Program-made: the position numbers and the translations under genes | Source of the DNA: Phocaeicola barnesiae DSM 18169 = JCM 13652 | GTDB taxonomy: Bacteria > Bacteroidota > Bacteroidia > Bacteroidales > Bacteroidaceae | Direction of reading: 5' to 3' | NCBI RefSeq assembly: GCF_000374585.1 | Contig: NZ_KB894663.1 | Coordinates: 1-47,785 of the forward strand | Length of the DNA: 47,785 nucleotides | The notes under the pieces: generated by a model | The model's input: the letters and a program-made list of their open reading frames with translations, nothing else | Database searches by the model: none | Told to the model about the DNA's origin: nothing | Part shown: one piece after another, positions 28,003-47,665 of the stretch | How positions within the stretch are numbered: position 1 is the stretch's first letter | Layout of the letters: each line of letters starts with the position of its first letter

Positions 28003-29097
28003 ATGGCAAGAAGCACATTCAAGGTGCTGTTCTACGTGAACGGCAGTAAGGAAAAGAACGGAATTGTCCCCATCATGGGACGAGTTACAATCAACGGAAC
28101 GGTAGCACAGTTCAGCTGCAAACGGACTATCCCGAAAGAGCTTTGGGATGCCAAAGGGAACAAGGCAAAGGGCAAGAGTATGGAAGCGAGGGAAACCAAT
28201 CTTGTGCTTGACAACATCAAGGCTCAAATCATCAAGCATTACCAGCGTATATCCGACCGTGAAGCGTATGTAACGGCAGAAATGGTACGCAATGCCTATC
28301 AGGGATTGGGCGGTGAGTATGAAACATTGCTCGGTGCTTTCGATAAGGAAAATGAAGTGTTCAAGAAGCGTGTCGGAAAAGACAGGGTCAGGGCTACCTA
28401 TATGGCAAGGGTACGGGCAAGAAACCATGTGGCGGCATTCATCAGGTCACATTACAAGCGGAACGACATCTCCATGCCTGAACTTACGCCCGACTTCATC
28501 AAGGAGTTCGCCGTGTTCCTTTCCAACGAAGCCGGACTGCACAACGGTTCGATATGGGAAAACTGCATGTGGCTGAAAGGTGTGGTGATGCGAGCGCATT
28601 TCAACGGACATATACCGAGAAATCCGTTTGCCCAGTTCCATATAAGCCCGAACACAAAAGAGCGTGAATATCTGACGGAGAATGAGCTGAAAACATTAAT
28701 GGAATTTCAGTTCAAAGACCCTAAGAACTCCTATCTCCGTGATATTTTTGTTTTCGCCAGTTTTACCGCCCTGTCATTCGTGGATATAAAGGAATTAAAC
28801 AATGACCAGATTGTGGAAGTGAACGGTGAGAAATGGATTATTTCCAAACGACACAAGACGGGTGTACCGTTTCAGGTAAAGCTGCTGGATATTCCCTTGC
28901 AGATAATCGAGCGTTACAAGGCTTTTCAGGAAAACAATCTTGTATTCCCCAATCTCAACTATTGGTCAATATGCAAGCGTATGGGAAAGATGATAAAGGA
29001 ATGCGGCATCACCAAGAAAATCAGCTTCCACGTCAGAAGACATATCATTTCTTCTTACTCATTGAAAACAAGAAACTTACAAAGGTTGTCAGCTTAA
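28003..29097 (+). pseudogene. Tyrosine-recombinase integrase truncated before the catalytic tyrosine
   Basis: The 364-residue product starts like Bacteroidales conjugative-transposon integrases (arm-binding ARSTFKVLFYVNGSKEKNG) and has the core-binding and catalytic domains up to SFHVRRH, the H-x-x-R box. After that it diverges into 17 unrelated residues and stops. The second box (LGH) and the nucleophilic Tyr found at the end of this family are missing. The first catalytic Arg position reads TALSFVD, as in IntDOT-like enzymes that lack that Arg. It should not be able to recombine DNA. Confidence 0.8.
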
Positions 29098-30152: not shown

Positions 30153-30835
30153 CTATTCCTTGTACTTTATGCCGTACAATCTTATCTTATTGTACAGTGT
30201 GGTACGTCCGATACCGAGCAACGCCGCAGCCAACTTACGGTTGCCTTTTGTCTGTTCCAGCGCATGGATGATTTGTTTCTTCTCCATGTCGTTTAGCGCC
30301 AATGAAGTGTCAGCCGCCAACGGCATTTCGTCAAACTCCAACACATCCGCCGTGACCGTATCGCCTTCGGTATGCAGCACCGCCATGCGCACAACCCGTT
30401 TCAGTTCCCTCACGTTGCCGCCCCATGTATAGGCGAGCAACCGTTTCCTTGCCTCCGCGTCAAAGCCTTTCACCTGCTTTTCAAATTCCTCGTTGGCAAG
30501 TTTCAGGAAGAAATCCGCCAATGGCATAATATCCTCCTTGCACTCGCGTAATGGAGGTATGTGCAGGGTGTATTCTTTCAACCGTTGGTAGAGGTCAGCC
30601 CAGAAACGCTTTTCGGCGATGGCAGTCTGCAAGTCCTCGTTGGTGGCGGCGATGATACGCACATCAGCTTTCTTGTCCTTGCTGCCGCCCGTGGGCCTGT
30701 ACCGTTTGGCTTCCAACGCGCGGAGCAGCATCTGTTGCACTTCCGGTGGCAGGTTGCCTATCTCGTCAAGGAACAACGTGCCTCCGGAGGCTTCCTCCCA
30801 GAGGCCTTGCTTCTCGTGTATCTTCTCGGCGATTC
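30153..30835 (-). pseudogene. C-terminal fragment of a RteB-like sigma-54 response regulator
   Basis: The reading frame from about 30835 down encodes the AAA+ core from LWEEASGGTLFLDEIGNLP (Walker B) through RIIAATNEDL to the Fis-type HTH NRKLAAALLGIGRTTLYNKI. The receiver domain, Walker A and the GAFTGA loop region are missing. Its homologue RteB controls tetracycline-inducible CTnDOT functions. The break falls at the GC-rich promoter repeat at 30837-30868. The frame runs on through that repeat and gives an apparent N-terminus that is not RteB. Confidence 0.8.
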
Positions 30836-30836
30836 C

Positions 30837-30868
30837 CTTGCCCCGCTCCCCGATTTTCCCTATCTTCG
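30837..30868 (+). promoter_or_regulatory. GC-rich-spacer promoter, copy 1 (SRPBCC gene)
   Basis: CTTG (30837-30840), the 20-base spacer containing CCCCGCTCCCCGATTTTC, and TATCTTCG (30861-30868) lie 17 bases before the SRPBCC start. The same spacer occurs at 37203-37236 and 37888-37919. Confidence 0.65.
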
Positions 30869-30885
30869 CCGAAAAACAATCAATT

Positions 30886-31290
30886 ATGCCCACATCGACA
30901 TTCAAAGCCCGATTGCCGCACGATGCAGCCACCATTTGGAACATCATAACTTCTTCCTATGATTATCACTGGCGCAGTGACATCGCACGAATTGAAAAAT
31001 TGTCTGAACATCAGTTTATGGAATATACCCACTCCGGCTATGTCACATTATTTACTATTACAGCCTTCCAACCTTTTGAACGGTATGAGTTTGATTTAGA
31101 GAATGAGAATATTAAGGGACATTGGTGTGGTTTACTTTCCGAAAGGAATGGGCAAACCGAAATCATATTCACAGAAACCGTTTTCGCCAAGAAATGGTAT
31201 CTGAAACCATTCGTCAAAATATATCTTCGGAGGCAGCAATCCGTTTATCTGAAAGATTTGCGTCAAAAACTTCTTGAATCAGTACGATAA
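30886..31290 (+). CDS. SRPBCC (START/Bet v1-like) family protein
   Basis: The 134-residue protein starts MPTSTFKARLPHDAATIWNI and has the helix-grip pattern of SRPBCC ligand-binding proteins (DYHWRSDIARIEKL, TLFTITAFQPFERYEFDL). Such proteins bind small hydrophobic molecules or act as stress proteins. The ligand is unknown. The ATG at 30886 is chosen because the family-like sequence starts there, just after the promoter. In-frame upstream codons run through the rteB fragment and are not coding. Confidence 0.75.
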   Translation: MPTSTFKARLPHDAATIWNIITSSYDYHWRSDIARIEKLSEHQFMEYTHSGYVTLFTITAFQPFERYEFDLENENIKGHWCGLLSERNGQTEIIFTETVFAKKWYLKPFVKIYLRRQQSVYLKDLRQKLLESVR

Positions 31291-32671: not shown

Positions 32672-33586
32672 ATGAATCGCAAAGACACTTACGGCATATA
32701 CAACAACACGGCGGAGCATATTTCTCTCCTGAAATACTCCAAAAGCTCGTGCGGCGTGGACTTCCTGCTGAACACGGCGGAAAGCACGGAGAAGCGGGGC
32801 TGGTTCGATACGGACAAGCGGTATCGGACTGACTTCTTCGAGTTCTATTTCTTCCGCAAGGCGGAGGGGCATCTCTTTTTGGCGGGCGAACGGATTGCAC
32901 TGCATCCCGGTATGTGGCTCGTCATTTCGCCTTTCCAGTTGCAGGAATGGCACGTGGAGTTGGACAAACTGGACTATACGTTCCTTGTCTTTCAGGAGGA
33001 GTTTGTGAACAATTTCCTCTCGGACAAGTATTTCATGTACCGTCTGCTTTATTGCTACCAGCACGATTATCCCACTTGGTTCGATATGCCGGAGGAAGAA
33101 GCCTACCCGTTGCTCGACTTGTTACAGAAGATGAAGCAAGAATTGCGCAATCCGATAGCCGACAGTTACCACCTGATTGTCGCCTACCTCTATCAGTTCC
33201 TTCTGTTGCTAAACCGCATTTACGCTCATCGTTTCAACTTGCCGTTTGCCCTGCCGCTGAACAACTACGCCTACCAGTACAAACAGCTCTTGGAAAAGAA
33301 CATTTGCGACAAGGCGCGTGTGGCGGACTATGCCGAAATGATGGGCATCAGCCGTGTGTCGCTCAACAAGGCGGTGATGCGCGAGTTCGGCCTCTCGGCA
33401 GTGCATCTGCTGAAGCAACGCCTCCTGCAAGAGGTGAAGAACGACCTGCTTTTCTCCAATCTCTCCGTCAAGGAAATCGCTTTCCGCCTGCACTTCTCCG
33501 AGCCGAACCACCTGATGCGCTTCTTCAAGCAGATGACGGAGCAGACCATCAGCGAGTTTCTTGCGGAGATGAACCGTGAGGATTAA
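32672..33586 (+). CDS. AraC family transcriptional regulator (first paralogue)
   Basis: The 304-residue protein has an N-terminal ligand-binding-like region beginning SSCGVDFLLNTAES. The C-terminal AraC double HTH (about 205-300) has VADYAEMMGISRVSLNKAV and VKEIAFRLHFSEPNHLMRFFK. It is clearly paralogous along its length to the gene at 35387-36286. It converges on the radical SAM gene. The shared motif before both araC genes suggests auto- or cross-regulation. Confidence 0.9.
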   Translation: MNRKDTYGIYNNTAEHISLLKYSKSSCGVDFLLNTAESTEKRGWFDTDKRYRTDFFEFYFFRKAEGHLFLAGERIALHPGMWLVISPFQLQEWHVELDKLDYTFLVFQEEFVNNFLSDKYFMYRLLYCYQHDYPTWFDMPEEEAYPLLDLLQKMKQELRNPIADSYHLIVAYLYQFLLLLNRIYAHRFNLPFALPLNNYAYQYKQLLEKNICDKARVADYAEMMGISRVSLNKAVMREFGLSAVHLLKQRLLQEVKNDLLFSNLSVKEIAFRLHFSEPNHLMRFFKQMTEQTISEFLAEMNRED

Positions 33587-34473: not shown

Positions 34474-35250
34474 TTACAACTCAAGGCTCTCCCCGTCTTC
34501 CGGTATAATCAGTCGGCTCATATCCGCCCCGTGGTGGCGGGCTTCGTTACGCAGGATTTCGCGCGTGGTCTGGCAATGGTCAATGGCATCCATATGCACG
34601 GCTATCAGTTTGATGTGTGCGGGGAGCGTGTCGAGCATCGCCATCACTTCCTGCTCGTCGGGGATGATGCAGCCGTCCGTCTTGGAAAATTCGGGGAACA
34701 CCGCACCGCCGCTGTTTACTACAATATAGTCGGGACGGTATTTTTCCACGGTTTCAAGGATGCACGGTTCCCATTTGCAGTCGCCCATTATATAAATGGT
34801 CGGAAGTCCCTCCGCCATCAACACATAGCCTGACACGGGTCCCATCATCTGACCTATCTGACCGAAACCGTGATGGCCCGTGGTGCGGTGGATGGTCAGT
34901 TCGCCTATTGTCTTGCTCTTTTCAATTGCTTCCACATTCGTAAAACCGTCCTGCACGAGGGTATCCTTGTCTTGCGGCTGGGTGTAGAAAGGAATGTCTT
35001 TCGGCAGATGTTGTTTCACGCTCGGTTCATAATGGTCAATGTGGTTGTGTGTGAGCAGTACCATATCCACGCCCTCGGTGATTTCGCTGATGGGCATTAC
35101 CAGATGCACTCTCGGACTCTTGTACACGCCGAGAGCGGATTGCAGGGTTCCTTTGTCGGCAAATACGGGATCAACAAGAATGGTGTGTCCTGCATAATTG
35201 ATTTTCAAGGTGGCGCTGCGCACCAACCGGATAATAGCTTTCTCGTTCAT
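34474..35250 (-). CDS. MBL-fold metallo-hydrolase (UlaG-like)
   Basis: The 258-residue protein has the metallo-beta-lactamase motif THNHIDHYE (HxHxDH) near residue 68 and downstream metal-ligand candidates TTGHHGFGQ and GDCKWEP. The sequence resembles the UlaG/NAPE-PLD-like branch of hydrolases with unknown substrate. It is the first gene of an operon with the radical SAM gene and diverges from the second araC gene across 136 bases. Confidence 0.87.
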   Translation of the reverse strand: MNEKAIIRLVRSATLKINYAGHTILVDPVFADKGTLQSALGVYKSPRVHLVMPISEITEGVDMVLLTHNHIDHYEPSVKQHLPKDIPFYTQPQDKDTLVQDGFTNVEAIEKSKTIGELTIHRTTGHHGFGQIGQMMGPVSGYVLMAEGLPTIYIMGDCKWEPCILETVEKYRPDYIVVNSGGAVFPEFSKTDGCIIPDEQEVMAMLDTLPAHIKLIAVHMDAIDHCQTTREILRNEARHHGADMSRLIIPEDGESLEL

Positions 35251-35386: not shown

Positions 35387-36286
35387 ATGAAAACGATAAC
35401 CAACCCCGAAAGACTGGTCAGCGTCCCGTTCAGCAAGACACGTTGCGGCGTGGACTTCTACATCAACACAGGCGAGAGCAAGGACATCTGTGGTGTCTTG
35501 ACCGAGCACCGGACGTTCAAGACGGATTTTTTCAGTTTCTATTTCTTTCGCCGCGCCAATGGCTATGTGCTGTTAAACTTCCGCAAAATAGAATTACGGG
35601 ACGATATGGTGCTCCTCCTGTCGCCGCACCAGCAACAGGAATGGCACGTGGACGAAGCGGAACTGGACTACACTTTCCTTATCTTCCGCGAGGACTTTAT
35701 GCGCACGTTCATCGCCGACAAGTTCTTCGTCTATCGCCTGCTGTATTATTATCAGACCGACACGCCACCGTACCTGTTTGCCGCGCCGGAAGAACTGGCG
35801 GAATATATGCGCCTCTTGGGGAAGATAAAACAGGAGCTGCTGCATCCTGTGGCAGACACTTACAACCTTATCGTATCTGTGCTTTACTATCTGTTGGTGG
35901 TTATCAACCGGGCATACGCCAAAACTTACCGTCTGCCGGTCGAAGTGCCGAAGAACAATTATGCATTCCAGTTCAAGGACTTGCTCGAAAAGCATATCCA
36001 CACCGTGCAGCGTGTTCAGGAATATGCCGATATACTCCGCGTGAGCCGTATTACTCTGAACAATTCTGTAATGGCGCAGTTCGGCGTGTCCGCCACCCAT
36101 CTGCTCAAACAACGCTTGTTGGAGGAATTGAAAAACGAGCTGTTGTTCTCCGACCGCAACGTGAGCCAGTTGGCGGACGAGTTCCACTTTTCCGACCCCA
36201 GCCATCTGATGCGTTTCTTCAAGCAACAGACGGGAAAGACGTTTACGCAATATATCACGGACTACCAAAAGGGGATTTACGAGTAA
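35387..36286 (+). CDS. AraC family transcriptional regulator (second paralogue)
   Basis: The 299-residue protein has the N-terminal region TRCGVDFYINTGES, and its C-terminal double HTH (about 200-295) has VQEYADILRVSRITLNNSV and VSQLADEFHFSDPSHLMRFFKQ. It is paralogous to 32672-33586. It is divergent from the MBL/radical SAM operon, a classic regulator-target layout. A non-coding repeat region follows. Confidence 0.9.
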   Translation: MKTITNPERLVSVPFSKTRCGVDFYINTGESKDICGVLTEHRTFKTDFFSFYFFRRANGYVLLNFRKIELRDDMVLLLSPHQQQEWHVDEAELDYTFLIFREDFMRTFIADKFFVYRLLYYYQTDTPPYLFAAPEELAEYMRLLGKIKQELLHPVADTYNLIVSVLYYLLVVINRAYAKTYRLPVEVPKNNYAFQFKDLLEKHIHTVQRVQEYADILRVSRITLNNSVMAQFGVSATHLLKQRLLEELKNELLFSDRNVSQLADEFHFSDPSHLMRFFKQQTGKTFTQYITDYQKGIYE

Positions 36287-37322: not shown

Positions 37323-37568
37323 TCAACAGTTGTTTTGCAATAATGCGCCAACAGCGGTAATAAACGCTTCGGCTTTGGGCATCAGTTCATCAATCTCTTC
37401 TTCGCTTGAATAAGCGAAATCATCGTAATCACTGCTATGCCTACGTTCGAAAAGCAAAGAAAAAGTGCGCCCTATTTCCCGGGATAAACGTCCGGTAGCT
37501 ACAAAGTGCATCCCTAACATCTGTTTGACTCCGGCGTGAGTGCCGGGATTATAACACAATTCCTTCAT
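37323..37568 (-). pseudogene. N-terminally shortened HEPN-domain protein
   Basis: The 81-residue frame reads GTHAGVKQMLGMHFVATGRLSREIGRTFSLLFERRHSSDYDDF, the second half of the MNT-associated HEPN fold. About 50-60 residues with the first helices are missing. The start overlaps the MNT gene by 20 bases in another frame, so a deletion seems to have joined the MNT end to mid-HEPN. Normal HEPN partners have about 130 residues. It may be inactive, or expressed as a stub. Confidence 0.7.
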
Positions 37569-37863
37569 TCATTACATTGACGTGGAACGGCGTGCGGAAA
37601 GGCAGGCTGTCCCACATTTTCTTCAGCAAGACACGTGCGTTAATCTGTACGCCGGTCTCAATCTCTATGTCATAAAGGGGGGCGATAATGCGGTCTTCCT
37701 CTTGGATGCTGAGTTTGTTGCCATCCACCAAGACCAACAAGTCAATGTCACTGTCGGGACGGGCATCCCCTCGCGCTTCGCTTCCATACAAGATGGTTTG
37801 GGCGTTGGGCGCCACTTGTGCCAATGCCTCCTGTATCCGTTTTACAATTTGTGGACGTTTCAT
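37549..37863 (-). CDS. MNT-type minimal nucleotidyltransferase
   Basis: The 104-residue protein has the nucleotidyltransferase signature GSEARGDARPDSDIDLLV at about residues 28-45, with the two metal-binding Asp. MNT antitoxins of this kind are known to AMPylate and silence HEPN RNases. The overlapping downstream HEPN gene confirms the module. Length is normal. It starts downstream of the third GC-rich-spacer promoter. Confidence 0.88.
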   Translation of the reverse strand: MKRPQIVKRIQEALAQVAPNAQTILYGSEARGDARPDSDIDLLVLVDGNKLSIQEEDRIIAPLYDIEIETGVQINARVLLKKMWDSLPFRTPFHVNVMNEGIVL

Positions 37864-38030: not shown

Positions 38031-38933
38031 ATGGTTTCAAAAGAAAAGATTGAGTTGTTGAGGCAGAAGATAGACGAGGCGGATGCCATCGTGGTGGGCG
38101 GAGCGTCGGGAATGTCTGCCGCATCGGGCTTCGTGTTCTACTATCAGGAGGACGATGTGTTCCGCCGTATGGCAGGAGGTCTGGCCGAGAAATACGACCG
38201 GCACAATATGTTCGACCTGTTCTATGACCGCCGCCCCTCGCGTGGCGAACAATGGGCGTTGATGCTGCGCGTCATACACTACATATATGAATGCTATACA
38301 GGCGAGACTTATACAGACTTGGCGGAACTGCTCAAAGGGAAGGATTACTATATTGCTACGACCAATCAGGACGCGCAATTCTATCGTGTGTTCCCTGCCG
38401 GGCGCATCACGCGCATACAAGGCGATTGGCGGTACTGGCAGTGCAGCCGTCCGTGCCACGACGAGATATATGACAATAAGGAAAAGGTTTATCGGCTTGT
38501 CCGGGAAATCATGGATGATGCCTTGCCCGATGAACTCATACCCCGCTGCCCGCATTGCGGCAAGGAGTTGGCTCCGTGGGTGCGTGGTTACACCTTCCTT
38601 GAAGGCGAATATTACCAACGGGAGATGAAACGGTATCTCGATTTCCTCCGCGCCAACTCGCGGCGCAAGGTGCTTTTCCTTGAACTCGGTGTGGGGATGA
38701 TGACCCCGATGTTCATCAAGGAGCCGTTTATGAATATGACCTACCAGTTCCCGAATGCTTTCTATGCCACCGTCAACCCCCAACACGCCATTATCCCGAA
38801 AGAGATTGCAAGGAAAAGCCTTGCCATTAGCGATGATATTGCCGTTACGCTGAAACAACTGTTGGGCAAATCCACGGCTGGAATGAAAGCATTTGATGCA
38901 AAAGAAGCGTTTAACCCGTCAAGAGTATATTGA
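38031..38933 (+). CDS. Sir2-like protein with SirTM-type active site
   Basis: The 300-residue protein has a Sir2 NAD-binding start VVGGASGMSAASGF (residues 21-34), the TTNQD strand (110-114) and four zinc cysteines (CSRPC 138-142, CPHC 173-176). The usual catalytic His is Gln130 (RIQGDW), and Asn112 lies 18 residues before it. This is the Asn/Gln arrangement known from SirTM sirtuins, which are protein ADP-ribosyltransferases. SirTM operons usually include a macrodomain and a GcvH-like protein, which are absent here. It is cotranscribed with a second sirtuin and a Fic protein. Confidence 0.82.
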   Translation: MVSKEKIELLRQKIDEADAIVVGGASGMSAASGFVFYYQEDDVFRRMAGGLAEKYDRHNMFDLFYDRRPSRGEQWALMLRVIHYIYECYTGETYTDLAELLKGKDYYIATTNQDAQFYRVFPAGRITRIQGDWRYWQCSRPCHDEIYDNKEKVYRLVREIMDDALPDELIPRCPHCGKELAPWVRGYTFLEGEYYQREMKRYLDFLRANSRRKVLFLELGVGMMTPMFIKEPFMNMTYQFPNAFYATVNPQHAIIPKEIARKSLAISDDIAVTLKQLLGKSTAGMKAFDAKEAFNPSRVY

Positions 38934-38934
38934 T

Positions 38935-39618
38935 ATGACAGAGATACAGAGAGCCGCCCAAGCCATCAAGGATGCCGATGCCTTGCTCATCGGCGCAAGC
39001 AACGGATTGTCCATCGCCGAGGGTTATCACATTTTCGCCAATAACGAGATGTTCCGCCGCCAGTTCGGCGACATCCAACAGAAATACGGCATACGCAGTG
39101 TCATTGAAGGATGTTTTTATCCCTACCCGAACGAGAAAGACCGTCAGGAGTTCCTGAACCGTTTGGTACAGCATTGGGTAACAAATTACCGTCCCTCGCA
39201 AGTAATGAAAGACCTGCTTGCCGTAGCCGGCGATAAGGACTACTTCATTCTTACATCCAATGCCGATACACATCTGGAACTGTCAGGTTTCGTGGCAGAA
39301 AAGGTGTTCGAGGTGGAAGGCACTTTCGAGGATATGCTGCATAACCGCCCGATGCAAAACAAGAGTCAAGAAGCCAATGCTTTCCTCAATCGTTATCACG
39401 GCAAGCGGCTCGCCATTCTCGAACTGGGCATAGGCAGCCGAAACCGTCTGATAAAGCTGCCGCTGATGCAACTGGCGGCACGTGAACCGCAAGCCACATA
39501 TATCACGCTGAATCTCGCACAGGAATTGTATATTCCCGATGAGATAGCACATCAATCCATTGGGCTGGCTGGGGATATTGCCCTCACGCTTAGGGAATTG
39601 AAGGAGAAATTGGTATGA
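38935..39618 (+). CDS. Degenerate Sir2-like protein without zinc cysteines
   Basis: The 227-residue protein matches the first sirtuin's Rossmann parts: LLIGASNGLSIAEGYHIFANNEMF (residues 17-40), LTSNADTHLE (106-115), and the C-terminal LELGIGSRNRLIKLPLM. The catalytic position is Glu (FEVEGTF), and the four zinc cysteines are gone, so the small domain is reduced. It may bind NAD without deacylating, or act as a partner of the first protein. ATG 38935 follows the previous stop by one base. Confidence 0.78.
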   Translation: MTEIQRAAQAIKDADALLIGASNGLSIAEGYHIFANNEMFRRQFGDIQQKYGIRSVIEGCFYPYPNEKDRQEFLNRLVQHWVTNYRPSQVMKDLLAVAGDKDYFILTSNADTHLELSGFVAEKVFEVEGTFEDMLHNRPMQNKSQEANAFLNRYHGKRLAILELGIGSRNRLIKLPLMQLAAREPQATYITLNLAQELYIPDEIAHQSIGLAGDIALTLRELKEKLV

Positions 39619-40445
39619 GGAGTTATCGTAAACATTTGTCGGGAGAAGCGGCTTTCAAGTCGTTTGTCCCGATGCCCCTTTCAGAAATACAGGTTATCCA
39701 TACGGAGGAATTGGATAAGCTGATAATGGAAACGGAAAGCGCAATGCAGCAATTCAATGATGACGCTTCACAACTTTCCGAGGAACAGATTGAGCAATTG
39801 ATGCGGCAGGAAGCGGAAAATTCCTGCAAACTGGCTTTGGGTGAACAGCCTTTGTCTTTTGGTTTTATGCCGGATGCGGATAGTGCGCTGGAAGAAGATA
39901 CGGACAATCTGCTGAAAGCCACTTCCTACGCCATTGAAGCGATGGATGAATTGCCGTTGAGCACCCGTCTGTTGAAAAACGCCCATTATCTGATGTGCTA
40001 TAGTGAAAGGTATGCAAAGAAATATCCGGGAGAGTTCCGCACATCTCCTGTTTGGATTGGTTGGAAAGGGAACGGACTGAAAGACGCTATGTTTGTTCCG
40101 CCCGTGTATGATGATATGATTGAAGCCTTTTCCGACCTTGAACGTTACATCAATTATGAAGATTTAGAGAATGTATTTGTACGAGCCGCTTTGATACACT
40201 ATCAGTTTGAAATGATACATCCCTTCATTGACGGGAATGGCAGAGTTGGACGGCTGCTCAACACATTGTACCTGATGGAGCAGCATGTTCTCAAATGCCC
40301 GGTTCTGCAACTATCCAATGTATTGAAGAAAAGTATTCTTGGATATTATATGGGAATACAGCATGTCAATGAGACGGGAACGTACAATGATTGGCTGCGC
40401 TTTTATTTGAATGCGATTAAATCAGCGACTTCAATCACCTGCTAA
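39615..40445 (+). CDS. Fic-domain protein, C-terminally shortened
   Basis: The 276-residue protein has a Fic_N region (FKSFVPMPLSEIQV) and the complete Fic motif HPFIDGNGRVGR at 202-213, as used by AMP-transferring Fic enzymes. Its start overlaps the second sirtuin stop by four bases (ATGA). The region where class II Fic proteins carry the inhibitory S/TxxxE(G/N) motif reads NSCKLALGE (69-77), with no Glu at the expected place. Typical relatives have about 370 residues with a winged-helix tail. Here the frame ends abruptly at a mosaic junction near 40445. Confidence 0.85.
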   Translation: MRSYRKHLSGEAAFKSFVPMPLSEIQVIHTEELDKLIMETESAMQQFNDDASQLSEEQIEQLMRQEAENSCKLALGEQPLSFGFMPDADSALEEDTDNLLKATSYAIEAMDELPLSTRLLKNAHYLMCYSERYAKKYPGEFRTSPVWIGWKGNGLKDAMFVPPVYDDMIEAFSDLERYINYEDLENVFVRAALIHYQFEMIHPFIDGNGRVGRLLNTLYLMEQHVLKCPVLQLSNVLKKSILGYYMGIQHVNETGTYNDWLRFYLNAIKSATSITC

Positions 40446-40557
40446 AAACGCCAATTGCTGCCAAATGCTTCCACGAAACTGCCAACCCATTGTTTGATGC
40501 GCAATACCCCTTTACTTTGCAGGCAAAACCGAGTATCAACATTAAAAAGTATCGACA

Positions 40558-40854
40558 ATGGAAGTTTTAATTATTCAGAAAGAGGCGTTCGAGGAAATGG
40601 CGGCGAAGTTCTGCCGTTTCACGGAACGGGTGGATGCCATCCTCGCCAAGCAGGGAGGCAAGTCATTGAATGCGTGGATGGACAACCAAGAAGTCTGCCG
40701 ACAGCTTAACATCAGTCCGCGAACCTTACAGACGTTGTGCGACAACGGCACGTTGGCTTATTCGCAAATCAACCACAAGGTGTTTTACAAGCCGGAGGAC
40801 GTGATGCGCATCGTCAAGCCCGTAGAAAACAGACGAAAAAATCCGGCTACCTAA
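40558..40854 (+). CDS. Excisionase-like helix-turn-helix protein 1
   Basis: The 98-residue protein has a helix-turn-helix of the MerR/excisionase kind (WMDNQEVCRQLNISPRTLQTLCDNGTL) followed by HKVFYKPEDVMRIV. Pairs of such small proteins near an integrase are standard in Bacteroidales mobile elements, where they act as excision factors or regulators. Confidence 0.85.
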   Translation: MEVLIIQKEAFEEMAAKFCRFTERVDAILAKQGGKSLNAWMDNQEVCRQLNISPRTLQTLCDNGTLAYSQINHKVFYKPEDVMRIVKPVENRRKNPAT

Positions 40855-40883
40855 TAGAAATATCCACTAAATCCAATGTAGCT

Positions 40884-41177
40884 ATGAGCGAAATGATTAC
40901 CAAGAGCCATGCGCTGGTCGCCCAATTCGGCGACACGCTTGACCGTCTGCTGGACGGCATTGAGAACTTTGTGGCAAACAGCCGTCCGACTTTGGGCGGT
41001 GAACGCTTCCTGACGGACAGGGAGGTTTCGGCACGACTGAAAGTGAGCCGCCGCACCTTGCAGGACTACCGCAACACCGGAATGATAGCCTACTACCAGT
41101 TGGGTGGCAAGATTCTCTACAAGGAATCGGACATCGAGCGGATGCTTGCCGCCAATTACCGGGAAGCGTTCAGATAG
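40884..41177 (+). CDS. Excisionase-like helix-turn-helix protein 2
   Basis: The 97-residue protein has FLTDREVSARLKVSRRTLQDYRNTGMI and GGKILYKESDIERML, the same fold as its neighbour. ATG 40884 gives MSEMITKSHALVAQF, the usual start. It is transcribed with the first gene, and a perfect hairpin follows. Confidence 0.87.
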   Translation: MSEMITKSHALVAQFGDTLDRLLDGIENFVANSRPTLGGERFLTDREVSARLKVSRRTLQDYRNTGMIAYYQLGGKILYKESDIERMLAANYREAFR

Positions 41178-41186
41178 CATCATAAA

Positions 41187-41223
41187 AAGGAATACGACCA
41201 GAGGACATCAGGTCGTATTCCTT
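41187..41223. terminator. Bidirectional terminator between the HTH and RhuM-like genes
   Basis: AAGGAATACGACC (41187-41199) and GGTCGTATTCCTT (41211-41223) are perfect 13-bp complements. The A-run at 41184-41188 becomes a T-run on the minus strand. Confidence 0.88.
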
Positions 41224-41250
41224 ACCGTGTCTGGTCGTATATCCTTTGTA

Positions 41251-41634
41251 TCAACAGCTATACTCCTTCCTAGAATATGCCACTGGCGAAAAGGACAAAC
41301 ATAGAGGTTCTTTCCGACTGGCGGCATACAGTTTCCCCATGACAAACCGCCTGAATGCCATGCACTCCTTAGTCCGCAGCCGAAAGGCAACGGCAATCAC
41401 CATTTCAAGACTGTACACATCATAGCTTATCCCGTTGTCCTGCCTGACGTAGCGCATGGTGTCGCTTTCCAACAACTCCATGTTCTTGTAAATGGTATGG
41501 ATAGCCCTGCGGATGTCGCAACCGAACACATTGAACGCATCGGACATTTCCTGCTGCGTCATCCATACGGGAACGGTCGGAATAGTGACCGCACCGTTTT
41601 CGTTGATTGTGATAATTCCACGTTCCATAGTCAT
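41251..41634 (-). CDS. RhuM-like N-terminal domain protein
   Basis: The 127-residue protein has VWMTQQEMSDAFNVFGCDIRRAIHTIY and YDVYSLEMVIAVAFRLRT, like the helix-turn-helix-type N-terminal region of RhuM/Fic-associated proteins. Function is unknown. Its start overlaps the integrase stop by four bases (ATGA), so it is coupled to the integrase. It is paralogous to 43163-43534. Confidence 0.65.
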   Translation of the reverse strand: MTMERGIITINENGAVTIPTVPVWMTQQEMSDAFNVFGCDIRRAIHTIYKNMELLESDTMRYVRQDNGISYDVYSLEMVIAVAFRLRTKECMAFRRFVMGKLYAASRKEPLCLSFSPVAYSRKEYSC

Positions 41635-42893
41635 TTCCCAATTTGCTCATTATTTAAGTCTGTTTCTTTTGGCAATCCTTGCCTTTTGTACCATTTGCCT
41701 GTTCCGTACATCATTCTGACCGCCATCAGGTTGTCCATGTCCTTGGATATCTTCTTGTCCGTCACTTCCGCGTACCGTTGGGTAGTTCTTATGCCTGAAT
41801 GCCCCATCATTTTGGCGATGCTCTCGATGGGTATGCCCTCTGAAATTAAGAACGTTCCGAAGGAGTGCCGACTTTGGTGGTAGGACAAGTTTTCTTTACG
41901 TCCTATCGCAACGCCCAGCTCGTGTATCTCGAACCACATTTCGTCACGACTCGGAAGCGGGAACACGGGCTTGGTGTCGTCCGTGGTGTTGTAGAGGTCG
42001 AGTATCTGTTCGGCTATCGGGTGCAGGGGGATGAACGCCTCCACGTTGGTCTTCTTGCGGTTGATGCGGATGTAACGCCTGCCGTCGGCAGTCCTGCCGA
42101 TGTGGTGCGGATGAAGCAGCATGGTGTCCACATACGCCAATCCCGTGAACGTTGAAAACAAGAACGCCCTGCGCCCCAGCTCCTGCAACGGGTCGAGCAT
42201 CGGGGTTTCAAGGATGGCTTTCAGTTCGGCACGGCTGATGTGCCTGTGCTTCGGCGTGGGCTTCTTCTCGTATTCCATGTCCTCCAACGGGTTGGCTCGG
42301 AGTATCTCGTAGTCCACTGCGAGGTACACCAGCTTGCTCAGCCAACAGAGGCACTTGTTGATTTGCTGTGCGCTGAAATTCTTGTTGCGCTTCATGAATG
42401 CCTTGTAGGAACTGCCGAAGTCCTCCGTGATGTCGGTGAACTCGATGTCCTCCTTGCCCAATGAAGTGAGGTATTCTTTCAGGTATTTCTGGTAATACCC
42501 CGAATGGCGGTAGGTGGACGTGGAGTTTATCTCCTTTGAACGGGCAAGCAGCCGCTCGCGTTCCCTTTCACCCATCTGCAACAGCTTGGTGGGGATGACC
42601 GCCCTTTTCGCCAACGTGTTCTTGAGCAGTTCGGCGCTCACCACGTTCTGTTTCTTCAAAATTTCATCGTAGGCAAGCCCTACGGACTTGCGGAACTCCT
42701 GCAGGCGGTTGTTCTCTCTGACGGTACGGATGGTTCCTGTCTTGCTGTTCCAATCCTCCGGACGGCAATAAATGCCCGTCGCCATCGTGGAACTCTTGCC
42801 GTCAACAGTGATACGGCAAAGGACGGCGGTCGTACCGTCCGCTTTCACCTTGTTTCTGTTAATATACGGTAATATGGAAAATGTACTGCGCAT
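41631..42893 (-). CDS. Tyrosine recombinase (site-specific integrase), complete
   Basis: The 420-residue protein has the SAM-like core-binding region (about 130-230) and the catalytic C-terminus with SYHQSRHSFGTF (H-x-x-R), MMGHSGIRTTQRYAEV (final Tyr) and LHP. At the first catalytic Arg position it reads TGLAYVD, so that Arg is replaced as in IntDOT-type enzymes. This one is full length and presumably active, unlike the copy at 28003. Confidence 0.92.
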   Translation of the reverse strand: MRSTFSILPYINRNKVKADGTTAVLCRITVDGKSSTMATGIYCRPEDWNSKTGTIRTVRENNRLQEFRKSVGLAYDEILKKQNVVSAELLKNTLAKRAVIPTKLLQMGERERERLLARSKEINSTSTYRHSGYYQKYLKEYLTSLGKEDIEFTDITEDFGSSYKAFMKRNKNFSAQQINKCLCWLSKLVYLAVDYEILRANPLEDMEYEKKPTPKHRHISRAELKAILETPMLDPLQELGRRAFLFSTFTGLAYVDTMLLHPHHIGRTADGRRYIRINRKKTNVEAFIPLHPIAEQILDLYNTTDDTKPVFPLPSRDEMWFEIHELGVAIGRKENLSYHQSRHSFGTFLISEGIPIESIAKMMGHSGIRTTQRYAEVTDKKISKDMDNLMAVRMMYGTGKWYKRQGLPKETDLNNEQIGK

Positions 42894-42935
42894 AGCTATG
42901 ATATTTTGGGGGCTATTGAATTGAATTTAATTTGA

Positions 42936-43163
42936 TTACAAAACAAGTTTCAAGTCTTTGGTCGCCTCGATGTACTTGTCCATGTCCTCAAAGAGCTTCT
43001 TCGTGGTGACACGTAGGCTCGGCTGTCGGAAACCTACCACCGTAAGGTGGCATGGCGCCGACAGCCGAGCCTACAGATAACCGTGCAGAAATTGGATAAT
43101 GACCTCACGATGCTGGGCGACAAACTGAGCAAATCATTCGGAAACGTGAAAATAGCTGGGATA
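42936..43163. pseudogene. Two gene remnants around a perfect 17-bp inverted repeat
   Basis: On the minus strand 43011-42936 reads as a coding tail (TTKKLFEDMDKYIEATKDL, then stop). On the plus strand 43075-43163 reads KLDNDLTMLGDKLSKSFGN and stops. Between them GTAGGCTCGGCTGTCGG (43013-43029) pairs exactly with 43058-43074, with an inner CCACC-GTAA-GGTGG hairpin. I do not recognise the two families. Confidence 0.55.
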
Positions 43164-43534
43164 TGAAACGGGAAATAATCACAACGGATAGCTATGGTAG
43201 AATTACCATACCATCCGATACAGGTAATATATGGATGAATGAAATGGAGCTGGTGGAGCTGTTCGGGGCAATCGCCCCGACGCTCCGTGCCGCCATTCGT
43301 GCCGTGTACAAGTGTGGAAATTTTAATCCTCTTGAAGCTGAAAAACGTATCAAGCTGCTCAACGGCTATTACGCGGACATGTATGCCTTGCCGATGGTGG
43401 TGGCACTCGCTTTTCGCATTGACACGTCAGGTGCCGCAACGGTTCGCAATGCACTGCTGGAAAGATTGTGCCGACGAAAAGAAAAACAAGTCCTGCTAGT
43501 GTCAATGAATAACAGAATGCCGTATGAATGTTAG
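43163..43534 (+). CDS. RhuM-like N-terminal domain protein, paralogue
   Basis: The 123-residue protein has the same plan as 41251-41634, with IWMNEMELVELFGAIAPTLRAAIRAVY and MYALPMVVALAFRID. Function is unknown. It sits on the other side of the integrase in opposite orientation. Confidence 0.6.
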   Translation: MKREIITTDSYGRITIPSDTGNIWMNEMELVELFGAIAPTLRAAIRAVYKCGNFNPLEAEKRIKLLNGYYADMYALPMVVALAFRIDTSGAATVRNALLERLCRRKEKQVLLVSMNNRMPYEC

Positions 43535-43546
43535 GGTGAACTTTTT

Positions 43547-43684
43547 ATGTTCAGCCACTACAATACCTATGCGGACATCAAGCGGCGGAAGAACGAGAGC
43601 CGGACGTATTTCTTTGACAGGGCGGCGGAACGGCTGAACCGCAGGATGATGCGGGACGAGGAGGCGGAACGGAAGAGGCGGTGA
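43547..43684 (+). CDS. Small basic protein of 45 residues
   Basis: ATG at 43547 gives MFSHYNTYADIKRRKNESRT, ending RRMMRDEEAERKRR. It is basic, helical and follows the RhuM-like gene by 12 bases. I do not recognise the family. Codon use looks coding, but the size leaves doubt. Confidence 0.45.
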   Translation: MFSHYNTYADIKRRKNESRTYFFDRAAERLNRRMMRDEEAERKRR

Positions 43685-43751
43685 AGCAAGAAAATAAGCG
43701 ATAAGTCCGCCTTGATTTATTACGAAAAAAATAAAAAAAGTTTCTACTATA

Positions 43752-43850
43752 TTTGTATTATCAAATATAAATTGTACTTTTGCAATACAATGTCGCCCTT
43801 AGGTGGAAAATACTAAGGCTCGCCACCCCTAAAAAGGTGGCTTATTTTTT
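43752..43850 (+). promoter_or_regulatory. Consensus promoter and hairpin leader of the NYN gene
   Basis: TTTG (43752-43755), 19 bases and TACTTTTG (43775-43782) match the consensus exactly. The leader then has CCTTAG/CTAAGG (43797-43802/43813-43818) and GCCACC/GGTGGC (43822-43827/43836-43841) followed by TTATTTTTT. The GGTGG at 43802-43806 could pair with the CCACC of the second hairpin, so alternative folds exist. This looks like an attenuator, or else a terminator of an upstream transcript. Confidence 0.65.
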
Positions 43851-43867
43851 ATATATACAATTGGAAT

Positions 43868-44509
43868 ATGGAGCAAAAACAACGCGTTATAGTCTATATT
43901 GATGGATTCAATTTCTATTTCGGACTGAAGAGCAATGCTAAATGGAAGAAATATTATTGGCTTGATATAGTCAAGTTGTTCGAGATGTTCATGCGCCCGA
44001 ATCAGGAGCTTGTTGCCGTCAAGTATTTTTCGGCAAAGCCTGATGATATAGACCAAAGTCTTCGCCAGAATGCCTTTTTTCAAGCCAATAGAGAAAATCC
44101 AAAATTCAAGTTGATATTGGGTAAGTATCTGAAAAAATCTATAACCTGTTTCAAATGCGGAAATGTTATTCATACCCATGAGGAAAAGGAAACTGATGTA
44201 CGAATAGCCACACAGATTGTAGCAGATGCCTATCAGAAGAATTGTGATATATCCATTGTAGTATCAGCTGATAGTGACATGATACCTGCTATCGAACTTG
44301 CAACAGAAGCTTGTCAAAAGGTTTTTGTATATTTCCCTCCTTACCAGTACTCCAGTAATCTTGCTACTATGGGTATGGGTAAGCCTATCCATATGAAACA
44401 ATATGAAACTCGTTTCAGGCAATGTCTTTTACCTGATGTGGTACATCTTGGAAAGGCAAACTTTGATTTACAGATACCTAAGAAATGGAAGGCTTTTCAG
44501 TCAATCTGA
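43868..44509 (+). CDS. NYN-domain (PIN-like) protein with zinc-binding-like insert
   Basis: The 213-residue protein has the NYN/LabA RNase-like acidic residues: Asp12 (YIDGFN), Asp110 (ETDVR) and the SADSD motif (133-137, Asp135/Asp137). An insert CFKCGNVIHTH (94-104) could bind zinc. NYN proteins are divalent-metal RNases. Alone in an island, with its own promoter, it may be a defence or regulatory RNase. Partner genes are not seen. Confidence 0.82.
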   Translation: MEQKQRVIVYIDGFNFYFGLKSNAKWKKYYWLDIVKLFEMFMRPNQELVAVKYFSAKPDDIDQSLRQNAFFQANRENPKFKLILGKYLKKSITCFKCGNVIHTHEEKETDVRIATQIVADAYQKNCDISIVVSADSDMIPAIELATEACQKVFVYFPPYQYSSNLATMGMGKPIHMKQYETRFRQCLLPDVVHLGKANFDLQIPKKWKAFQSI

Positions 44510-44535
44510 ATCAGAAATACGCGTTATAAAAAAGG

Positions 44536-44585
44536 AAAATCCGTAATACAGTCTGGAATATCCAGTCGTATTACGGATTTTTCTT
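44536..44585 (+). terminator. Rho-independent terminator of the NYN gene
   Basis: AAAATCCGTAATAC (44536-44549) and GTATTACGGATTTT (44568-44581) pair perfectly, with an inner CTGGA/TCCAG stem, and T-rich sequence follows. Confidence 0.92.
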
Positions 44586-44601
44586 TTCGTCTATGATATT
44601 T

Positions 44602-44823
44602 CTATTTGTTCTGCAAGAGGTATTGCAGTTCGGGGTCGGACTGTATGCGCTGCAACTCGTCAGCGACAATCTGCCGGACCTCGGCACGGATACGGTTGTA
44701 GTTATCCTAGTTCATCTCCTTCATGCGGTCGTTGCCGCCGGCATCTGTAAAGTCCGTGATGACGGGTATAGACCGGTAAGCCTGTTCCTCACGCTTCACT
44801 TTCTCGGCATCGACCACAATTGG
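44602..44823 (-). pseudogene. Gene remnant with an in-frame amber stop
   Basis: The minus strand reads EEQAYRSIPVITDF, then MKEMN, TAG and DNYNRIRAEVRQIVADEL to a TAG stop at 44602-44604. The TAG could come from CAG by one change. Further codons upstream are frameshifted. It is a degraded gene. The family is not recognised. Confidence 0.55.
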
Positions 44824-44920
44824 ATGATTAACGGTTTAATCTGACGTAGTGACGACATGAAGTCATTAAATCCGTAAATCAGTGCGTCAGTCAATCTGTA
44901 ATTATCTGCAACATCCAGTC

Positions 44921-44958
44921 CCCGAAGACGTGCATATTCCCCGACTTCGGGCTTTTTT
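44921..44958 (+). terminator. Terminator hairpin in remnant DNA
   Basis: CCCGAAG (44921-44927) pairs with CTTCGGG (44945-44951), and CTTTTTT follows. Confidence 0.75.
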
Positions 44959-45016
44959 ATCTCCTTTTATCTGAAAGAGCCACCCGTTTATACTGCATTT
45001 TCTTTTGGCATGACCT

Positions 45017-45082
45017 ATTTTGCGCCGTTCCGCATAGATTTGCGTATCAAGATTTTACCGACACTTCCGTAGCTTTGCAACC
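45017..45082 (+). repeat. 66-bp upstream element, copy 2
   Basis: Aligned without gaps to 27923-27988 with about 45 of 66 identical. The TAGCTTTG (45070-45077) is a -7 box. It precedes the primase remnant and may drive the mobilisation region. Confidence 0.55.
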
Positions 45083-45137
45083 ATGTTTAACCCGTTGCCG
45101 ACAGAATGTAGGCAGCACTAAAACCTGTATCAAGAAC

Positions 45138-45270
45138 ATGAAGAAAAAAAGGAATCATTTGCGTAGGTACAATTCTCTACAAGATTGTGAACCAGTCCCG
45201 CATTGACGGAGGCTATATGAAGAAGGTACTCTCACAGGCTTTTGGAAACAGAAAAGCCATAGCTCATTAG
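45138..45270 (+). pseudogene. N-terminal remnant, primase-helicase-like
   Basis: From ATG 45138 the reading frame shifts in a run of seven A. In the shifted frame GIICVGTILYKIVNQSRIDG and GGYMKKV resemble the N-terminus of Bacteroidales primase-helicase-type genes. The frame ends at TAG 45268-45270 after unrelated codons. Confidence 0.45.
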
Positions 45271-45287
45271 GGCATTTTCTTTACGCA

Positions 45288-45400
45288 GTGCAGGTACCGC
45301 TAAAAATGCCCCAATGATCCAACGGGGTTACACCCCTCTGGACACCCCCGTTTGCCATGAGGCATGACCGCAGCTGACGGAAACCAACAAACCAAATTGT
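45288..45400 (+). other. Candidate oriT upstream of the MobV relaxase
   Basis: Short inverted repeats (GGGGT/ACCCC at 45324-45336, TGCC/GGCA near 45351-45362) and CTCTGGACACCCCCG lie directly before the relaxase gene, as oriT does in NBU/Tn4555-type elements. There is no exact consensus match that I can state. Confidence 0.45.
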
Positions 45401-45424
45401 CAAACTTGAAAACGAAAAACAAGC

Positions 45425-46795
45425 ATGGGATATATAAGCATTCAAATCAACAAAGCGAAAGGCTCGGCTGACACGGGCGCATCCGACCACATAGAACGTA
45501 AGACCATACCCAAGAACGCAGACCCTACACGTACACATCTCAACCGTGAACTGGTGGAGTTCCCTGATGGAGTGTCCGACCGTACCGAAGCGATAAGCCA
45601 CCGTATCCGTACGGCAGGCATCAAACGTAAGATAACCCCTGACCAAGTGCGGGCAATTAGAATCGTGCTTTCGGGTACGCACGAGGATATGATGAAAATA
45701 CAGGACGAGGGCAGACTTGATGAATGGTGTGATGACAACCTGCAATGGCTGCACCATACCTTCGGCAAGGAAAATACAGTTTCGGCAGTCCTGCACATGG
45801 ATGAGCACACACCGCACATTCATGCCACGGTCGTACCGATAGTAACAGGAGAGCGCAGGAAAGCCAATAAGAAGCAGGCGGATGGTAAACGCTCGTACCG
45901 CAAGAAAGCCAATACCGTGCGCCTGTGTGCTGATGATGTATTGACACGTGAGAAACTGGTAACGTATCACGACAGTTATGCAAAAGCAATGGAGAAATAT
46001 GGCTTGCAACGTGGTGTGCGTGGCTCGGAAGCACGCCATACAACAACCGCCCAATACTACCGTGATTTGAAACGGCAGACGGGTGAACTTGAAGCCAACA
46101 TGCGGCAGTTACAGACAGAGCGGCAACAGGCAGAGCAACAACTTGACGAGGTAAGGCAGGAGGTCAAATCGGAGAAACTGGAAGCAACCAAGACGGAAGT
46201 GAAAGTCGCATTCGTGGCAAAGGTCGGTTCTCTTTTGGGCGGTGGTAAATTGAAAGAGCTGGAAGCCAACAACCGCACCCTGCAAGGCGAGGTCGCCGCC
46301 CGTGATGAGAGCATCAAGTTGTTGCAACAGCAGATGCAGCGGCAGCAAGAGGAACATAACCGCCAACTTATGGAATTGCAAGTCAAGCACCGCAGGGAGA
46401 TGGCAGATAAAGAAACGGCACACCAAGAAGAAGTGTCATTCCTGAAATCCATCATCCAAAAAGCCAAGAAATGGTTTCCGCTATTCCAAGAATTGGTGTA
46501 CATGGAGAAGTTCTGCCTTAAAGTCGGCTTCAACGAACGGCAGACCGCCACGCTCATCAGCGGCAAGCCGTTGTTCTATGAAGGCGAACTCTATTCGGAG
46601 GAACACAAGCGGAAGTTCACGACCGAAAGGGCTGGTTTCCAAGTGGTGAAAGACCCGAAAGACAAGTCTAAACTTGCACTTTCCATCAACGGGCAACTGA
46701 TTGGCGAATGGTTCAAAGAGCAGTTTGGCAGGCTGTTTTCATCCGTTAAAAGGACGGTTGAGCCGCTCAGGAAAGGCAAGGGCATGGGATTATAA
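45425..46795 (+). CDS. MobV-type plasmid mobilization relaxase
   Basis: The 456-residue protein has the MobV (Pre/Mob) histidine motif HMDEHTPHIHATVVPI at about residues 122-137. Earlier it has the family start GYISIQINKAKGSADTGASD, and a long coiled coil (about 220-330, LQTERQQAEQQLDEVRQEV). It nicks oriT for transfer using helper conjugation machinery. No transfer genes are in the window, so the element is mobilizable rather than self-transmissible here. Confidence 0.93.
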   Translation: MGYISIQINKAKGSADTGASDHIERKTIPKNADPTRTHLNRELVEFPDGVSDRTEAISHRIRTAGIKRKITPDQVRAIRIVLSGTHEDMMKIQDEGRLDEWCDDNLQWLHHTFGKENTVSAVLHMDEHTPHIHATVVPIVTGERRKANKKQADGKRSYRKKANTVRLCADDVLTREKLVTYHDSYAKAMEKYGLQRGVRGSEARHTTTAQYYRDLKRQTGELEANMRQLQTERQQAEQQLDEVRQEVKSEKLEATKTEVKVAFVAKVGSLLGGGKLKELEANNRTLQGEVAARDESIKLLQQQMQRQQEEHNRQLMELQVKHRREMADKETAHQEEVSFLKSIIQKAKKWFPLFQELVYMEKFCLKVGFNERQTATLISGKPLFYEGELYSEEHKRKFTTERAGFQVVKDPKDKSKLALSINGQLIGEWFKEQFGRLFSSVKRTVEPLRKGKGMGL

Positions 46796-46803
46796 ACAAT
46801 GCC

Positions 46804-46863
46804 AACGGGAGGATAGCAAGTTTGTGTTTTGGGCAGACCAAAACCGCTTGCTGCCCTCCCGTT
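46804..46863. terminator. Hairpin between the relaxase and the HAD gene
   Basis: AACGGGAGG (46804-46812) pairs with CCTCCCGTT (46855-46863), with further CAAG/CTTG pairing inside. There is no strong T-run. It sits between convergent genes. Confidence 0.6.
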
Positions 46864-46882
46864 AATCATTCATATAGAATCT

Positions 46883-47578
46883 TTATCTTAAAATATTTAA
46901 ATTCCTCAAAGCCTTTTCTATTCCATTATCATCCACTGCTCCGGTAACATACTTTGCAACAGATTTTACTGCCATTGAAGCGTTTCCCATGGCAATACCT
47001 ATTCCGGCCCTACGAAGCATAGGAATATCATTCCCTCCATCCCCAAACGCTAAAGATTGGGACAAATCCAAGTCGAAATATGCGGCAAAATCTTCCATGC
47101 CTGTTGCTTTATTCACCCCTTTAACATTTATGTCAGCAAAATAAGGATGCCACCTTGAAGCGGAAAGATTGGGTAATTGGGACATAACAACTTTTTCGGT
47201 ATCTGCATCCAGATAAAAGCAGAACTGGCAACATGTATGCTTTTCAAAATATCCTTTTAAATCAACGATACTAGGAACAGGATGTTCTACTATTTTTGCC
47301 GCATCTATTACGGTCGAATTCAAGCGGTTCACGAAAACTCCTTCATTCAATTCCAAAGCCATTGGAAAATGAAACTTCTCGGAAAGAGCCAATGCTTTTA
47401 AGAAGTCTGCACTGGAAATTTGCTTTTGTGAAACAATTGTTCCGTCTCTTAATACACATTCTGACCCATTCAGGGTGATGACAGCATCGTAAGGGACTTC
47501 TGCTATTTCTTGAATATTCTTTGAAGCACGTCCAGTAGCTATTATAATTTTATTCAAGTTTCGCAAGTACTCAAATAA
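46883..47578 (-). pseudogene. Cof-type HAD phosphatase, 5' end lost
   Basis: From about codon LFEYLRNLNKIIIATGR on, the frame is a normal Cof-type HAD hydrolase with motif II (ATGR), motif III (NKATGM) and motif IV (GDGGNDIPMLRRAGIGIAMGN). The DxD nucleophile segment that should precede it is absent. In-frame codons beyond 47578 belong to the neighbouring element. Insertion of that element is the simplest cause. Confidence 0.8.
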
Positions 47579-47590
47579 TGTAATAAAAAA

Positions 47591-47665
47591 GGCTAAAGAG
47601 TTTGATAATTCGATGATTATCACTATATTAATGTCGCCAAACAAACGATATAGCACCCTTTAGCC
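47591..47665 (+). mobile_element. Probable left end of an insertion sequence
   Basis: GGCTAAAG (47591-47598) and CTTTAGCC (47658-47665) are inverted repeats flanking the leader of the next gene, with GATAAT/ATTATC between. The HAD homology stops at about the outer repeat. Confidence 0.5.

Follow-up and report, generated by a model that had tools for sequence, protein, structure and literature searches.

The 47,785-nucleotide stretch of Phocaeicola barnesiae DSM 18169 = JCM 13652 analysed here (contig NZ_KB894663.1, here C21; genome size 3.62 Mb; hereafter the window) encodes two adjoining sirtuins, S1 and S2, followed by a Fic protein. Our analysis identifies the S1-S2 pair, and not the triple, as the conserved unit, its adjacency and motifs being retained in two phyla beyond chance. 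By its sequence, its modelled fold and its place in a phylogenetic tree, S1 belongs to the class M (SirTM-type) sirtuins and is predicted to be a protein ADP-ribosyltransferase; S2 is likely its altered-site partner. The two likely act together as a two-protein switch consuming nicotinamide adenine dinucleotide (NAD), to which Fic, an optional enzyme with predicted AMPylation activity, was likely added in some Bacteroidales.

The three genes are intact open reading frames (ORFs) on the forward strand, in the order S1 (38031-38933, 300 aa), S2 (38935-39618, 227 aa) and Fic (39615-40445, 276 aa). An original prediction, made from the letters of the window, had described them as coupled, and the ORF coordinates agree: S1 and S2 are separated by 1 base, and the stop of S2 overlaps the start of Fic by 4 bases (ATGA, 39615-39618). 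The length of S2 is counted from the ATG at 38935; an alternative in-frame ATG at 38896 is possible. The same prediction listed four zinc cysteines and Gln130 in S1, a Glu and no zinc cysteine in S2, and a complete Fic motif, all of which are present in the sequence.

In S1, Asn112 (codon 38364-38366) corresponds to N118 of the Streptococcus pyogenes enzyme SpySirTM, Gln130 (38418-38420) to Q137 and Arg185 (38583-38585, within WVR) to R192, and the zinc ligands are Cys138, Cys142, Cys173 and Cys176. Across 76 aligned S1 rows, Gln occupies the Gln130 column in 75 (QG instead of HG; the remaining row has a gap), Asn112 of the catalytic pair is kept in 75 and Arg185 in 73. The prediction that Asn112 and Gln130 both stand in place of a usual His pair was therefore half right: Gln130 does replace the catalytic His of deacylases such as CobB and Sir2, but an Asn at the place of Asn112 is normal for sirtuins. 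Excerpts of the SirTM study describe Asn118 as the Asn usual in sirtuins (PMC4518038), and two HG sirtuins in our tree also read TSNVD at this site. The pyrophosphate motif, GVGMMTP, departs from the class M form GVGx[NT]TP; TP is present in 75 of the 76 rows, and Met, Leu or Ile stands at the [NT] position in 75. A structure model of S1 has the SirTM fold. The match of S1 to the NCBIfam deacylase subfamily PRK00481 (E 2.1e-7, 30 of 243 bits) falls far under the cut-off, and placement of S1 in the SirTM group, also suggested originally, is upheld by sequence, fold and tree.

S2, a class M-derived sister sirtuin with no zinc ribbon, retains Asn109 and the residues for NAD and ADP-ribose, together with an invariant acid at the active-site position. 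Its Glu126-Val-Glu128 codons lie at 39310-39318, with Glu128 at the position of Gln137 or of the deacylase His, and both Glu residues are present in all 81 S2 rows. The QG motif and Arg192 of SirTM are absent, the former replaced by Glu in 81/81 rows and the latter found at its column in 0/81. On two Lactobacillaceae plasmids (L203, L204), S1 adjoins an S2 that carries a fused cupin domain, and pnuC lies about 4 kb upstream in one of the two. This cupin matches Cupin_5, above the Pfam cut-off in L203 and below it in L204, and may represent a target or effector. Bacteroidales cupins were considered as its kin and rejected: blastp found no relation, and the two matched different Pfam families.

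The common ancestry of the pair was examined with an IQ-TREE phylogeny of 82 rows (32 S1, 36 S2; midpoint root). The S1 rows form one clade and so do the S2 rows (support 100/99 each), and both join in a single clade (100/97). Outside it, SirTMs of the macro-linked type come next, then lone QG sirtuins, and the two HG sirtuins lie furthest. The macro-linked label was given to SirTMs resembling that of Anaerostipes locus L149; by coordinates, five of these eight stand beside a macrodomain gene, one is about 4 kb from it and two have it on another contig. They do not form one clade, the sequence from L181 being separate from the others. A macrodomain and a SirTM stand side by side elsewhere in 5 of 20 pair-bearing clostridial genomes, including L149; these separate macro-linked SirTMs, with the tree position, mark the pair as a branch of its own. 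Most simply, an old duplication inside class M would have given S1 and S2.

To collect relatives, contigs of GTDB were scanned with an S2 alignment, which gave 167 relatives, of which 80 loci were retained by the patterns SN[AG]DTHLE or LIGASNGLS. Conservation of the pattern letters therefore carries no weight; neither the Glu, nor the Asn of the pyrophosphate loop, nor the neighbouring genes figure in the patterns. The sample comprises 36 zinc-less loci (mainly Bacteroidales) and 44 zinc-bearing ones, with flanks of varying length (13/80 are shorter than 8 kb). The zinc-less set includes L099, a metagenome-assembled genome titled Desulfovibrio; this and other off-lineage titles on Bacteroidales-like loci (Lachnospiraceae L085, Staphylococcus L088) look like binning errors. 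S1 lies upstream of S2 on the same strand, within 1.2 kb, in 73 of the 80 loci, and four of the other seven have S2 less than 400 bases from the start of the locus (L065, L090, L106, L114). At least two S1-type frames occur upstream of S2 in eight loci, ahead of a single S2 in L103, L104, L110, L112, L117, L122 and L143, and as two pieces of one broken gene in L074. Among 399 genomes of the family, S2 or a distant sirtuin was matched in 22, and close S1 (at least 72%) was found in 8/100 relatives; a class-wide S2 search of 395 genomes returned the host genome and one weak match (27%). Distant matches were present in 23 plasmid records and weak ones in three phage records. Four of five plasmid regions examined carry the S1-S2 pair, found without the patterns and agreeing with the 80 loci in Gln, Glu and WVR; the fifth (L207, 27% match) holds a SirTM adjoining a macrodomain.

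The triple itself, sought in other genomes as the original prediction had advised, recurs by record title in several Bacteroidales genera, but not as the unit that had been proposed: a Fic cluster member occurs no more than 3 kb from the pair in 13/36 zinc-less and 0/44 zinc-bearing loci (a 65-aa Fic fragment at L065 excluded), and overlaps the gene before it, whether S2, HD or nicotinate phosphoribosyltransferase (NAPRT), in 10 of those 13. The window Fic matches Pfam Fic (E 1.8e-17) and the SoFic model of PADLOC (E 9.3e-59), and its motif HPFIDGNGRVGR (residues 202-213, positions 40218-40253) agrees with HxFx(D/E)GNGRxxR. Conservation was followed in 125 Fic rows, namely the window copy, 13 operon copies and those 111 of 120 listed relatives longer than 240 aa. 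The strict motif occurs in 9 of the 14 operon Fics, the window's included, and in 68 of the 125 rows, Ala for the first Gly being the commonest change. The class II inhibitory helix, (S/T)xxxE(G/N), is replaced by SCKLAL with Ala at the Glu position: in a 14-row profile spanning SoFic residues 6-276, Ala74 (codon 39834-39836) falls on SoFic Glu73. No Glu stands at this place in 123/125 rows, and the two that keep it are both Prevotella operon copies (L094, L095). Excerpts of the structural study report that changing Glu73 to Gly unleashes SoFic (PMC3667792), and the window protein is best described as class II-like without the inhibitory Glu. Within the family, 14 genomes have a Fic match at 1e-40 and seven hold the short form (at least 47%); of these seven, four lie in an S1-S2 run, two at a contig start (G008, G596) and one stands alone, adjoining a ferritin-like gene (G609).

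The gene context of the pair points to NAD turnover and to stress or metabolism, through recurrent nicotinamidase-like, NAPRT and HD-like genes, Rrf2 and AraC regulators, and metal pumps. Neighbours were counted within 3 kb of the pair, each cluster being named from one representative. HD-like genes occur in 8/36 zinc-less and 12/44 zinc-bearing loci (Pfam matches of 20.6 and 21.6 bits, just below the cut-off of 22), and nicotinamidase-like genes in 5/36 and 4/44 (below the NCBIfam cut-off at 64.5 of 174 bits, though PDB nicotinamidases match). NAPRT genes fall into a group a (4/36, 0/44) and a group b (0/36, 3/44) that share Pfam families yet were not joined by blastp (1e-8, over half length); as the groups also split by phylum, salvage genes were perhaps recruited at least twice. 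In P. coprophilus (L071) the order is S1-S2-HD-nicotinamidase-NAPRT-Fic, with a short HD frame, and in Paenibacillus sp. 37 and Mesobacillus foraminis it is S1-S2-HD-NAPRT-nicotinamidase, with a gene for a metallo-beta-lactamase (MBL)-fold hydrolase nearby. The host genome has a NAPRT on another contig; an HD query matched nothing there, an empty result that says little.

Among regulators, AraC is found near 22/36 zinc-less and 11/44 zinc-bearing pairs, Rrf2 near 0/36 and 27/44, and ArsR near 0/36 and 10/44; the best specific regulator match of the Rrf2 protein is the redox regulator HypR, below cut-off. The window carries an AraC-family candidate regulator from this AraC cluster at 35387-36286 (+) and a second member of the same cluster at 32672-33586 (+). 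Its MBL-fold hydrolase (34474-35250, -) belongs to a cluster near 15/36 zinc-less and 0/44 zinc-bearing pairs and is 34% identical to the MBL gene near the Paenibacillus pair. Metal-type genes include P-type ATPases (4/36, 5/44) and HMA genes (2/36, 6/44). Two DUF3786 clusters are confined to zinc-bearing loci (0/36 for both; 9/44 and 7/44), standing beside clostridial pairs at L100-L102, L106, L107, L114-L116, L118, L120, L127 and L131; some of these loci also carry ATPases of CooC-like appearance or fumarate-reductase-like subunits.

Several further elements surround the operon in the window. A mobile element follows Fic directly (40446-47656), with helix-turn-helix genes, a tyrosine integrase (41631-42893), an NYN gene corresponding to PADLOC HEC-09 and a Mob_Pre relaxase (45425-46795). 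In P. coprophilus (L025), the region downstream of Fic matches about 2.1 kb of this element at 87% identity; two other genomes, L169 and L170, have a similar Fic 3' end but do not match the element. On the other side, divergent from S1, a HEPN and MNT-type nucleotidyltransferase pair (37323-37863, -) resembles type VII toxin-antitoxin pairs and is not at the corresponding place in the close relative L021. Elsewhere in the window are another tyrosine integrase and a sigma-54 activator frame truncated at its 5' end (28003-29097 and 30153-30947).

The absence of a macrodomain and of GcvH-L, the partners of known SirTM operons, was also part of the original prediction and is supported. No macrodomain was found in the host genome by a search that was positive in 8 of 14 control genomes, and the sole GcvH match is on a different contig. 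A macrodomain search of 48 pair-bearing genomes (completeness not given) was positive in 21 and found none in 27. Seven macrodomain ORFs, drawn from nine regions (no ORF could be used from L151 or L152, and in L147 the frame exceeds the domain), were compared with the 80 loci by tblastn and gave one match, at the far edge of L101 more than 8 kb from the pair; the host GcvH matched none of the 80, the search being limited to GcvH and not extended to LplA2, OYE and LLM genes. A macrodomain or GcvH-L hidden nearby was accordingly rejected, and S1 lacks the genetic linkage to a macrodomain that is among the class M criteria. The host has one ADP-ribosyl-glycohydrolase gene, unlinked on contig C7, which makes an eraser outside the operon possible. 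The suggestion of a conflict or defence system has so far found no support: in 100 of 233 neighbour proteins, hand-picked after the named clusters (Fic, HD, MBL and others) had been excluded, no PADLOC family among those listed (25 of 66) occurred in more than 2, and a pattern scan of viral contigs gave no match.

The explanation we prefer, to which we give an even chance, is that S1 moves ADP-ribose from NAD+ to a target while S2 is a partner subunit controlling the reaction, with Fic as an optional AMPylator. S1 would cleave NAD+ and transfer ADP-ribose; S1 and S2 would bind each other, S2 sensing or gating the use of NAD; and, in operons that carry nicotinamidase and NAPRT genes, these enzymes would return freed nicotinamide to NAD. 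A factor other than its own helix would restrain Fic, or Fic would be active whenever the operon is on, and the adjoining AraC (Bacteroidales) or Rrf2 (Clostridia) regulator may switch expression on a redox, metal or metabolic signal. The partner role proposed for S2 draws on strict pairing, gene coupling and the analogy of FAM118A/FAM118B as presented in excerpts of PMC12700824. Several observations weigh against this explanation. The Glu of S2 would also fit a hydrolase or an NADase. A glycosidase gene separates S1 from S2 in L107, S1 is absent from the stretch in 2/80 loci that have S2 (L099, L108), and S1 is broken into two frames in L074. In Prevotella L094 and L095, a clostridial-type S1 (66-68% to clostridial relatives) accompanies a Bacteroidales-type S2 (59-62%), and such possible re-assortment speaks against a tightly co-adapted complex. 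The pair is patchy, with close S2 (at least 62%) in 8/399 family genomes, and salvage genes are absent from most loci and from the flanks in the window. As to Fic, the strict motif is altered in 5/14 operon copies, and a close Fic occurs with no S2 match in G008 and G596, where the contig begins inside Fic, and in G609.

A tentative possibility is that S1 writes and S2 erases, S2 being a sirtuin-fold ADP-ribosyl hydrolase in place of a macrodomain, with Glu128 as acid/base. S2 does occupy the place of the Zn-macrodomain in minimal SirTM operons, it combines NAD/ADP-ribose residues with its invariant acid, and macrodomains were not found in the host or in 27/48 pair-bearing genomes; we know of no sirtuin-fold ADP-ribosyl hydrolase, however, and both the unlinked glycohydrolase gene and the macrodomains of the other 21 genomes indicate that another eraser is available in many. 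Were this doubtful alternative to hold, S2 would be the first sirtuin-fold ADP-ribosyl eraser, the product of an ancient tandem duplication of a class M writer in which the catalytic Gln gave way to Glu and the Arg was lost, as was the zinc ribbon in Bacteroidales. The result would be a write/erase pair that works without a macrodomain, served by an operon able to recycle the by-product of its own NAD use and, in some Bacteroidales, adding AMPylation by an uninhibited Fic. It is unlikely that S1 and S2 form a signal-dependent NAD glycohydrolase with no protein target, whose losses the salvage genes repair. The recurrent nicotinamidase-like and NAPRT genes and the FAM118A/FAM118B precedent (PMC12700824, in excerpts) would suit such an enzyme, but the SirTM transfer residues persist in S1 (Gln in 75/76 and Arg in 73/76 rows) and no recurrent defence partner appeared in the sample scanned.

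A toxin-antitoxin or defence cassette, in which the sirtuins would hold Fic as a toxin, seems very unlikely to us. It would account for a Fic with a full motif, no usual inhibitory Glu and a match to the PADLOC SoFic model, and for the adjoining HEPN/MNT pair and mobile-element integrase; against it, no Fic cluster member lies within 3 kb in 23/36 zinc-less and 44/44 zinc-bearing loci, and PADLOC families, viral contigs and phage records gave, respectively, none in more than 2/100 neighbours, no match and three weak matches. That S1 and S2 are ordinary deacylases in a chance run of genes is extremely improbable, despite their pipeline annotation as NAD-dependent deacetylases and the weak PRK00481 match of S1. 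The deacylase His is absent from both proteins (Gln in S1, Glu in S2), and both the adjacency of the genes and their motifs persist across two phyla.

No earlier description of the tandem pair or of a sirtuin-Fic operon was found in searches of open-licence papers. As far as excerpts of a 2024 source state, GcvH-L was then the only known SirTM target, and that source describes roles and targets beyond the lipoyl operon as elusive (PMC11490716). The pair is a second, separate class M sirtuin lineage in gut Bacteroidales and Clostridia, with an altered-site partner built in, and the salvage-type genes link it to NAD supply. Two questions become testable with it: how ADP-ribosylation by sirtuins is reversed or controlled when a genome yields no macrodomain, and what function a sirtuin active site has when Glu replaces His or Gln.

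Of the systems compared, class M SirTM (Rack et al. 2015, PMC4518038; structure 5A3A) shares with S1 its fold, the Gln for His, the Asn, the Arg and the zinc ribbon, and its two-gene operon logic recurs in S1-S2. The pair differs from it in having a second sirtuin with Glu as partner, with no macrodomain partner and no GcvH found nearby, and in the GVGMMTP motif. The macro-linked SirTMs of the same clostridial genomes (L149 and others) resemble S1 (37% for L149) and carry the QG motif, but stand apart from the pair in the genome and outside its clade. FAM118A and FAM118B, according to excerpts of PMC12700824, are likewise a pair of sirtuin paralogues, each dependent on the other for strong NAD processing; they differ in being vertebrate, of antiphage (ThsA-like) type and equipped with an active-site His. 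SoFic, a class II Fic adenylyltransferase (3ZCN; PMC3667792, in excerpts), has the same Fic core and a similarly placed N-terminal helix, and differs from the window Fic in carrying Glu73 where the latter has Ala74, and in length (361 residues in the PADLOC SoFic model and 378 in the 3zcn chain, against 276 aa).
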